From: an uncultured Bacteroidia bacterium
Lineage (GTDB): Bacteria > Bacteroidota > Bacteroidia > Bacteroidales > ML635J-15
DNA: 44,372 nucleotides
Assembly: GCA_902762455.1 (NCBI GenBank)
Contig: CACWOG010000012.1
Span: forward strand, 1 to 44,372
Direction of reading: 5' to 3'
The notes under the pieces were generated by a model that saw only the letters and a list, made by a program, of their open reading frames with translations, had not been told where the DNA came from and ran no database searches. Each line of letters opens with the position of its first letter. Positions within the stretch are counted from its first letter, which is position 1. This document shows, piece by piece, positions 32,786-34,802 of the stretch. Both the position numbers and the translations under genes were made by a program.

Positions 32786-33010
32786 TTAATTCTCTTTACC
32801 CTCAATATATTCCGAATAGCACTTGAAGAAGTCGTAGCCCATAATGTCACTGATTTTTAGAAGCAAGTCGGTGTATATCCATTTTCGTTCGAATAGTTTA
32901 TACATATTTTGCCTTGAATAGCCGAGTTGTGTTGCGAGCCAAGTAATTGTACGACCTTGACGGCGAAGCTCCTGTTTTATTATGTGTCCTATATGTAGTT
33001 CTTTGTCCAT
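32786..33010 (-). CDS. Small helix-turn-helix DNA-binding protein (74 aa)
   Basis: Conserved Bacteroidota XRE-like mini-regulator: MDKELHIGHIIKQELRRQGRT followed by an HTH (WLATQLGYSRQNMYKLFERKW) and an amphipathic C-terminus (ISDIMGYDFFKCYSEYI). ATG 33010 is chosen over the upstream in-frame TTG because it begins at the conserved domain and follows a -7 box. Target unknown. Confidence 0.75.
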   Translation of the reverse strand: MDKELHIGHIIKQELRRQGRTITWLATQLGYSRQNMYKLFERKWIYTDLLLKISDIMGYDFFKCYSEYIEGKEN

Positions 33011-33383: not shown

Positions 33384-33797
33384 TTATTCGCCAAAATAAT
33401 CACAAACGTCATCATAAAAGTTTGAAGCAATAGAATTTGCATACTGTGCAATAGTTGCACCCGCTGCTGCTCCCGATGGACCACCAATATAAGCACCTGC
33501 TGCAGTTAACCCAGCAGTGATTGCTGACTTCAACCCAGTTTTAACGATGCCTTTTGTATATTTATTTCCGCAAAAGAAATCATACAACGGCCTTCCATTA
33601 GAATCTTTTCTATCACTCTTTTCAACTTTCAAGTTAAGAGTACACTGATGAATATCATCTTCTATTACAGCCACATTACCATAACTGGCCAAATACAATC
33701 CATCAGCAATTTTTGTTCTTTCTTGTGCATTCGCAATATTAGAGCCTAAAAACAAAAGACAGATAATTGAAAATACCATTACTAAACTTTTTTTCAT
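33384..33797 (-). CDS. Small secreted protein with glycine-zipper-like segment (137 aa)
   Basis: Signal peptide (ending IANAQE). Mature N-terminal half with two Cys; C-terminal half with an Ala/Gly-rich helix (GLTAAGAYIGGPSGAAAGATI) resembling glycine-zipper helices. It ends DDVCDYFGE. Start at 33797 (MKKSL) chosen; an upstream in-frame ATG at 33824 belongs to the conserved leader (MGYNLAKIE). Function unknown. AT-rich like its neighbours. Confidence 0.65.
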   Translation of the reverse strand: MKKSLVMVFSIICLLFLGSNIANAQERTKIADGLYLASYGNVAVIEDDIHQCTLNLKVEKSDRKDSNGRPLYDFFCGNKYTKGIVKTGLKSAITAGLTAAGAYIGGPSGAAAGATIAQYANSIASNFYDDVCDYFGE

Positions 33798-33802
33798 CTC
33801 TA

Positions 33803-33841
33803 TTTTTGCCAAGTTATATCCCATTAGGCTCGTCGGTTTTT
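33803..33841 (-). promoter_or_regulatory. Conserved leader element, copy A
   Basis: Minus-strand CCGACGAGC then AATGGGATATAAC, ending 16 nt before the ATG and followed by GGCAAAA. The ATG inside it opens a micro-ORF (MGYNLAKIE) that is in frame with the downstream gene. Near-identical elements precede the next two genes upstream. Confidence 0.75.
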
Positions 33842-33875
33842 GAGAATTAAGTTGACTATCGTAAATTATTGGATA

Positions 33876-34247
33876 CTAGTTTAAAACTTCCACAGAATCT
33901 ATTTTAATTCTTTTTGTCTCACAGCCAGATGTAGTACCACTTGGGCTATTTTTGTAAAGTGTTGCTGTGCTTTCTGAATGATAACCATGCTCAGCAGCGC
34001 CATAAACAGAATAGCAATCCGATCCAACCTTAATGCCTCGTTCATTGTAAACACTGACGCAGACCTTTATTGATTTTGTAGAATTATTGTAGAATTTGAG
34101 AGAAGAAGAGGTGTGACTGTCATCTGAAACAGAAACAAACACCGCATAACCATCATCACCTGGAACAAATGCTTTATCCTGTTGTGCATTTGCTACAAAG
34201 ACAAAACTCAACATCATCGCTGATAATAATACCAATATTTTTTTCAT
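33876..34247 (-). CDS. Small secreted protein (123 aa)
   Basis: Signal peptide (ending FVANAQQ), then a beta-rich mature domain with KFYNNSTKSIKVCVSVYNERG, suggesting an immunoglobulin-like sandwich, and three Cys. No homologous family is recognised. It lies 61 nt after the 135-aa gene and 78 nt before the 137-aa gene, each gap holding one leader element. Confidence 0.65.
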   Translation of the reverse strand: MKKILVLLSAMMLSFVFVANAQQDKAFVPGDDGYAVFVSVSDDSHTSSSLKFYNNSTKSIKVCVSVYNERGIKVGSDCYSVYGAAEHGYHSESTATLYKNSPSGTTSGCETKRIKIDSVEVLN

Positions 34248-34253
34248 TGTTAC

Positions 34254-34294
34254 TTTGCCTGGTTATATCCCATTAGGCTCTTCGGTTTTAAAAA
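34254..34294 (-). promoter_or_regulatory. Conserved leader element, copy B
   Basis: CCGAAGAGC then AATGGGATATAAC on the minus strand, ending 15 nt before the ATG. The micro-ORF reads MGYNQAK and its TAA ends 2 nt before the ATG of the 123-aa gene. Confidence 0.75.
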
Positions 34295-34308
34295 TATATA
34301 AAATTGTT

Positions 34309-34716
34309 CTATTGCAAATTTATCTCTTTCTGTCTTGGCACTATTCTACCTAATGGACCAGGAATTACATATTCTTTAATAAAATCACCATACGGTCTCA
34401 CTTCGTCGCGAATAAGCTCATCACTTTGACTGAATCCAAATGTAAATGGCACATATTCATCTGTTGTATTCGTTATACTAAGATTAACGCGTACAAAACT
34501 AGAACCAGAACAATCCTCTAAAGTTGCAGACCATCTCAATTCACCAATCCTCTCCTTTTTTGCCATTTTGAACTTGTTAACTATAATTGTTCCTGTTGTT
34601 GGGAATGGAGTCGAATACGATTCAACAACATACTTAGGTGCAGAAAATGCGCAAAAGATTATAGCAGACAACACCAAACTGCATACAACACTTATTATTA
34701 AAAATATTTTCTTCAT
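34309..34716 (-). CDS. Small exported/membrane-anchored protein (135 aa)
   Basis: N-terminal hydrophobic segment (MKKIFLIISVVCSLVLSAII) that may be a signal anchor or cleaved signal. The mature part is beta-rich (VVESYSTPFPTTGTIIVNKF; FVRVNLSITNTTDEYVPFTF) and suggests an Ig-like fold. No specific family recognised. It is first in the group of three genes that share the leader element. Confidence 0.65.
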   Translation of the reverse strand: MKKIFLIISVVCSLVLSAIIFCAFSAPKYVVESYSTPFPTTGTIIVNKFKMAKKERIGELRWSATLEDCSGSSFVRVNLSITNTTDEYVPFTFGFSQSDELIRDEVRPYGDFIKEYVIPGPLGRIVPRQKEINLQ

Positions 34717-34720
34717 CTTC

Positions 34721-34757
34721 TTTTTGCCTTGTTATATCCCATTGAGCTCATCGGTTT
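34721..34757 (-). promoter_or_regulatory. Conserved leader element, copy C
   Basis: CCGATGAGC then AATGGGATATAAC on the minus strand (GCTC replaces GCCT of the other copies), ending 15 nt before the ATG. The micro-ORF reads MGYNKAKRR and its TGA overlaps the ATG of the 135-aa gene (ATGA). Confidence 0.75.
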
Positions 34758-34766
34758 AAATGGGAA

Positions 34767-34802
34767 AAAGAGACCTCTATGATCACAAAATGAGATCTCT
34801 TT
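34767..34802 (-). terminator. Terminator of the OmpA-domain protein gene
   Basis: Stem AAAGAGACCTC/GAGATCTCTTT (one wobble pair) with a minus-strand T run, 17 nt past the stop at 34819. It separates that gene from the three leader-element genes. Confidence 0.75.

Follow-up and report, generated by a model that had tools for sequence, protein, structure and literature searches.

The window analysed here is positions 1 to 44,372 of contig CACWOG010000012.1 (44,372 nucleotides, nt) from an uncultured Bacteroidia bacterium, and our subject is a short element repeated three times in it, in each case closely 5′ of an open reading frame (ORF) for a small exported protein (Table 1). The window has three exact copies of the 13-mer AATGGGATATAAC, each of them on the reverse strand (33813-33825, 34262-34274 and 34731-34743), and CCGAnGAGCnn precedes each copy, so that the three repeats reported in an earlier note on this DNA are real. 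It may be pointed out that the 13-mer alone is unremarkable in the window (4 matches at up to 2 mismatches vs 1.27 expected); the full 24-nt motif is present 4 times in its own genome when up to 3 mismatches are allowed vs 0 for a backwards control, the fourth lying on another contig, which is the kind of further copy the note had proposed to look for. The gap between the last base of the motif and the ATG is 15, 14 and 14 nt at elements 1, 2 and 3, a small correction to the 15-16 nt given in the note. Its micro-ORF readings are as claimed: MGYNLAKIE in frame with gene 1, MGYNQAK with a stop 2 nt ahead of the ATG of gene 2 and MGYNKAKRR with a stop overlapping the ATG of gene 3. The proteins had been called unrelated, which is correct at the sequence level, where none of the three has a match in Pfam, but structure prediction gives an all-beta sandwich for the second and also for the third, with weak PDB matches (nothing at E 0.001 or better in the fold search of these two). 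Five homologues of the second protein elsewhere, and two of the third, likewise lie behind an element, showing that element and gene stay together.

Table 1. Coordinates of the elements, their genes and neighbouring features in the window (S1 and S2 are the two helices described in the text).
Feature	Position	Strand	Remarks
Element 1	33808..33839	-	S1 33837-33834 with 33823-33820; S2 GCC 33829-33827 with GGC 33810-33808
Loop of element 1, ATGGGATATAAC	33824-33813	-	Sequence reading
Element 2	34257..34288	-	Anatomy as element 1; loop 34273-34262
Element 3	34726..34757	-	Anatomy as element 1; loop 34742-34731
Gene after element 1	33384..33797	-	137-aa exported protein; ATG 15 nt past the loop; no Pfam family
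Gene after element 2	33876..34247	-	123-aa exported protein; predicted beta sandwich
Gene after element 3	34309..34716	-	135-aa exported protein; predicted beta sandwich, lower confidence
TAAATTTG, -7 box of Bacteroidota type	34315..34322	-	30 nt 5′ of the CCGA of element 2
Inverted repeat then T run, terminator-like	34763..34800	-	After an OmpA-like gene, closely 5′ of element 3; read by eye
Small helix-turn-helix (HTH) gene, Cro/XRE-like	32786..33010	-	Pfam matches below curated cut-off; downstream of the array of elements

Conservation extends over a unit of about 32 nt, N-CCG-AnGn-(4-6 nt)-AUGGNAUAUAAC-(4-6 nt), in which the 12-nt loop A-U-G-G-N-A-U-A-U-A-A-C and the 5′ CCGAnG are near-invariant while the bases between and behind them vary. 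We gathered 243 distinct elements, distinctness being judged on the 100-nt context, from 250 raw matches, keeping those with CGAnG, ATAnAAC and a spacer of 4-8 bases; 6 of the 243 have no ORF. As some species are represented in both of the genome collections used, the main statistics were redone with one element per protein cluster. Within the genus the pattern CCGANGN{4,8}ATGGNATANAAC gave 113 matches in 15 of 26 genomes vs 2 for the backwards pattern, and no match in the other 11. A covariance model built from 13 copies, to which element 1 is the top match of its own genome at 60.4 bits, has matches in 15 of the 31 genomes of the family, often at least 5-12 per genome; the per-genome counts in the family, order and phylum scans are lower bounds, part of the candidates having been scored. 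The single pattern match in the same-genus genome G011 lacks a stem and appears to be a chance hit. The model has a match in 15 of 393 genomes of the order sample, and in the phylum sample model R2 with strict filters found it in 1 of 395, namely its own. The pattern search of the class sample was positive in 7 of 395 genomes, but the six others have no stem of at least 3 bp and one alone among them has an ATG ORF of at least 35 aa within 40 nt (at 20 nt), so we take these six as chance. When one genome per species was scanned (84,980 species), 113 stretches were found, every one with a Bacteroidota title and nearly all in Bacteroidales metagenome-assembled genomes, mostly of rumen and gut origin. 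Arrays of three elements are seen in the window and at locus L076, and most copies are single. A loop variant AUGGNAUAGAAC, with U replaced by G at loop position 9, is present in 10 of the 243 elements (loci L053, L068, L073, L094, L104, L112, L132, L173 and L180).

The pairing of the stem S2, which has 3-6 variable base pairs, is well supported. When each protein cluster contributes a single element, an S2 of at least 4 bp is present in 71 of 95 vs a shuffled mean of 36.9 and maximum of 49 over 2000 shuffles, and in the 110-match alignment there are 71 double-change cells vs 20.7 in shuffled data, a covariation signal that is abolished on shifting S2 by one to three columns. As many as 102 different stems of at least 3 bp occur. 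S2 alone is moderately stable (median -4.0 kcal/mol), which fits what a switch would want. The 5′ N-C-C-G can also pair with the loop U-G-G-N as a candidate helix S1, whose outer pair joins loop base 5 to the base that precedes CCGA; among the 243 elements this pair is G-C in 37, A-U in 28, C-G in 15, G-U in 9, U-A in 2 and A.G in 138. The number of Watson-Crick pairs at this position was above the shuffled mean in all 20 one-per-cluster draws, and in 17 of the 20 draws 0 of 2000 shuffles were as high. With one covarying pair and three invariant ones, S1 pairing is probable rather than proven, and the helix order S1-S2-S1′-S2′ would make the element an H-type pseudoknot. The stem of element 3 (GCU/GGC) is the weakest of the three in the window. 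An upstream TCCCATT could pair there with the loop AATGGGA (34731-34765) as an alternative hairpin competing with the pseudoknot, a pairing not seen at elements 1 and 2.

The start codon lies 13-15 nt past the loop in 191 of 237 elements, and 13-16 nt past it in 79 of the 95 unrelated downstream protein clusters. Measured from the 3′ edge of the stem the AUG is most often 9-10 nt away, which places the element inside the stretch needed by the 30S subunit. The intervening spacer is rich in A (58%). The sequence TAnnTTTG, which we take to be the Bacteroidota -7 promoter box, stands 20-60 nt upstream of 102 of 235 elements vs 34 of 1175 control windows (that of element 2, TAAATTTG, overlaps the end of the upstream gene), and 53 of the 235 are within 80 nt after a same-strand ORF. 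In both settings it is the start codon, rather than a promoter, that the element goes with, and as the box is often 5′ of it, it is a 5′ untranslated region (UTR) element. Where the transcript start can be guessed in this way, the element therefore appears to lie within the transcript.

On clustering by BLAST, the 237 downstream proteins fall into 95 clusters. A simple, self-made and crude signal-peptide rule is passed by 70 of 92 cluster representatives vs 215 of 705 neighbouring ORFs (about three quarters vs 30%). Pfam and NCBIfam were scanned for the same number of representatives, the three shorter than 35 aa being left out, and gave scattered families with the commonest in only 2 of 92, by which a shared protein function of the targets was ruled out. 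The domains found include Band 7, adhesin-like proteins sorted by the type IX secretion system (T9SS), Cys-Xaa-Xaa-Xaa radical-SAM target peptides, fn3, BACON and TM2. Precursor peptides resembling such radical-SAM targets, with an RRxFFK-type leader, lie behind the element at L054, L060, L061, L088 and L090. The largest cluster (45 elements; L072, L150 and others) has one scanned member with T9SS sorting and choice-of-anchor J domains, and several copies of it are present in some genomes.

A recurrent neighbour is the HTH gene listed in Table 1, homologues of which are present in 46 of 113 genome loci. For 37 of 232 elements such a gene is encoded in the 700 nt upstream, on the strand of the element, 27 of these at 88-132 nt before CCGA, and is absent from that stretch for the remaining 195. 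Homologues are found in 18 of 26 same-genus genomes, some of them without elements; as an obligate partner the gene is therefore rejected, frequent neighbour though it is. In some loci repeats such as TTTGACA...TGTCAAA, perhaps HTH operators, separate the HTH gene from the element. We read regulator gene, promoter, element and exported protein as a common module, in which the DNA target of the HTH protein is more likely the promoter region between its own gene and the element.

The pattern was also searched in IMG/VR, where 42 stretches were found and 15 were taken as real by stem and start codon; the other 27, together with 7 further new loci, look like chance. Of the 15, 14 precede a glutamine-amidotransferase-like ORF and one precedes an ORF without assigned function. 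Two of the amidotransferase-like ORFs were tested against Pfam, one giving GATase matches below curated cut-offs and one none. The start at the phage loci is Met-Cys, about 15 nt past the loop, and Met-Cys is the start expected of class II amidotransferases. The phage contigs have few Shine-Dalgarno-like sites, and -7 boxes stand ahead of two of the elements (L311 and L316), which together point to Bacteroidota hosts. In L311 (2130-6457) a GGACT-family gene follows the amidotransferase-like gene, and L295 (33-2344) and L311 both have a large upstream ORF that is amidoligase-like by eye and has no Pfam match.

The earlier note had proposed a shared cis element and had pointed to the conservation of non-coding bases; the former is now strongly supported, and the latter was the right clue. 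The best reading is that the element is probably a not previously described translation-control pseudoknot, and we consider it likely that this H-type pseudoknot in the 5′ UTR serves as a conditional switch of translation initiation for the gene behind it. The RNA of each repeat would fold into S1 (N-C-C-G/U-G-G-N), the variable S2 and a near-invariant third loop AUAUAAC. A ligand or an RNA-binding protein would recognise the conserved nucleotides of CCGAnG and AUGGNAUAUAAC, and this recognition would stabilise the knot and alter 30S loading, with repression slightly preferred as the sign of control. The family, the pairing of S2, the spacing, the place in the 5′ UTR and the variety of targets are shown by the data, whereas the effect on translation, the ligand or protein and the sign are inferred. 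A paired stem at a near-rigid distance from the AUG, in a phylum that relies little on Shine-Dalgarno sequences, suggests that the ribosome or a competitor measures this distance. Some observations weigh against such a switch. The invariance of loop and CCGA is partly by construction, since the fetching patterns fix most of those bases; 138 of the 243 elements have a mismatch, A.G, at the fourth S1 pair, and the inner three pairs hardly vary and so neither support nor refute the helix. Also, for 98 of 235 elements no -7 box is seen and no ORF lies close upstream, and Pfam and NCBIfam revealed no pathway common to the targets that would name a ligand.

A constitutive role is the most serious alternative, in which the pseudoknot would dock on the 30S platform, position the AUG and raise initiation without a ligand. 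The AUG spacing, about as rigid as Shine-Dalgarno spacing across the 95 unrelated clusters, would suit this, as would the A-rich spacer, the lack of a shared pathway among the user genes and the few Shine-Dalgarno-like sites of the carrier phage contigs; the accessible part of PMC6847099 likewise describes Bacteroidetes mRNAs without Shine-Dalgarno sequences. However, only approximately 10 genes per genome have it, and these are mostly for small exported proteins and not the highly expressed core genes. Also, structure at the start site generally lowers initiation. The same portion of PMC6847099 has mRNA secondary structure tuning initiation, which again counts against constitutive docking. 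Constitutive docking is unlikely in our estimate, and the conditional switch is preferred to it. A related and rather unlikely idea is that the start-codon-tethered pseudoknot is a portable Bacteroidota initiation module, which would replace the Shine-Dalgarno signal for envelope and exported genes, be recognised by the 30S platform or by a factor bound there, and have been acquired by Bacteroidota phages for a glutamine-amidotransferase gene.

The two explanations offered in the earlier note, a translated leader and a promoter or operator, did not hold up. For the leader, in which the loop AUG would open a conserved micro-ORF MGYNxAK coupling translation to the gene, speak the presence of that AUG in 242 of 243 elements (partly by construction) and MGYN as the commonest start (141 of 236). 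Yet the gene start is in frame 0, 1 and 2 of the loop AUG in 88, 37 and 112 of the 237 elements with an ORF, and of the 236 ATG genes 73 are fused in frame, 68 overlap the stop, 55 have the stop before them and 40 see the micro-ORF run on out of frame. Furthermore, 13 of the 243 elements, in 8 protein clusters, have a stop at codon 3 in an otherwise near-invariant loop, and the second codon varies between Gly, Ala, Val and Glu (MGYN, MAYN, MVYN, MEYN), its base changing together with the base before CCGA, which indicates pairing and not coding. With frame and length so variable and stops inside the loop, the micro-ORF was rejected, its probability being very small. A site recognised as double-stranded DNA, with the small HTH protein often encoded upstream as one possible binder, has the recurrence of that gene in its favour, but most elements lack it in the 700-nt stretch and its homologues occur in element-free genomes. 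The position follows the start codon, any -7 box that is seen lies on the 5′ side of the element, and the stem changes its sequence while the pairing is kept; on this covariation the duplex site was ruled out as well, and we regard it as highly improbable. An integron-like recombination site of mobile cassettes might be suspected from the short same-strand arrays of unrelated small genes (three in the window, three in L076) and the many unrelated cargo proteins. But most copies are single, the site keeps a fixed place with respect to the gene start, and no integrase was seen, although no search was aimed at integrases. The hairpin is also much shorter than that of an attC site, and recombination is accordingly given hardly any weight.

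Bacteroidota dominate many gut communities, and how start codons are chosen there without Shine-Dalgarno pairing is an open question. One compact RNA that precedes the AUG of numerous unrelated genes at a near-fixed distance offers a direct experimental handle, as it can be mutated, moved or used to find its binder. Through it a group of exported proteins of rumen and gut Bacteroidales, most of them uncharacterised, is delimited as a set that may be co-controlled, and is linked to phages.

No description of the motif was found in the literature, as far as open texts go, subscription papers and supplementary files being outside the search, and it could be present without a name among published candidates such as the 3161 of PMC8040213. 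The accessible parts of PMC2864571, PMC11109978, PMC9602691 and PMC8040213 do not describe the element. In Rfam 15 no family reaches its curated cut-off for it. PhotoRC-II RNA (RF01717) gives a sub-threshold match over element 3 (16.3 bits vs a cut-off of 39) with a shared AACCGA; it was rejected, since four cyanophage matches used as controls, three of them above cut-off, have a different hairpin and no AUGGNAUAUAAC. Riboswitches of the preQ1-I and SAM-II types are small H-type pseudoknots at the start codon, and the element resembles them in its probable compact H-type fold, its invariant loop nucleotides and the adjoining ribosome-binding region, and has the 5′ UTR position close to the gene start that is expected of a riboswitch; it differs in having no Rfam match, no Shine-Dalgarno strand in S2 and targets that share no metabolic pathway. 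The S15 rpsO and T4 gene 32 mRNAs have autoregulatory pseudoknots in the ribosome-binding region that trap or block the 30S subunit. The location is alike, but each of these controls one operon whereas our element precedes 95 unrelated protein clusters. The odc1 (uORF-25-1) motif, as given in the available part of PMC8632094, similarly has a hairpin with a pseudoknot from the 5′ end to the loop near a start codon, and an upstream ORF. According to the same text, however, odc1 is alphaproteobacterial, with an extended stem that contains the ribosome-binding site, and its upstream ORF has a fixed length and a conserved peptide, whereas the micro-ORF of our element is fixed neither in length nor in frame and has no conserved peptide of that kind. 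We conclude that the element probably works like the small start-codon pseudoknots while being assigned to no named family.
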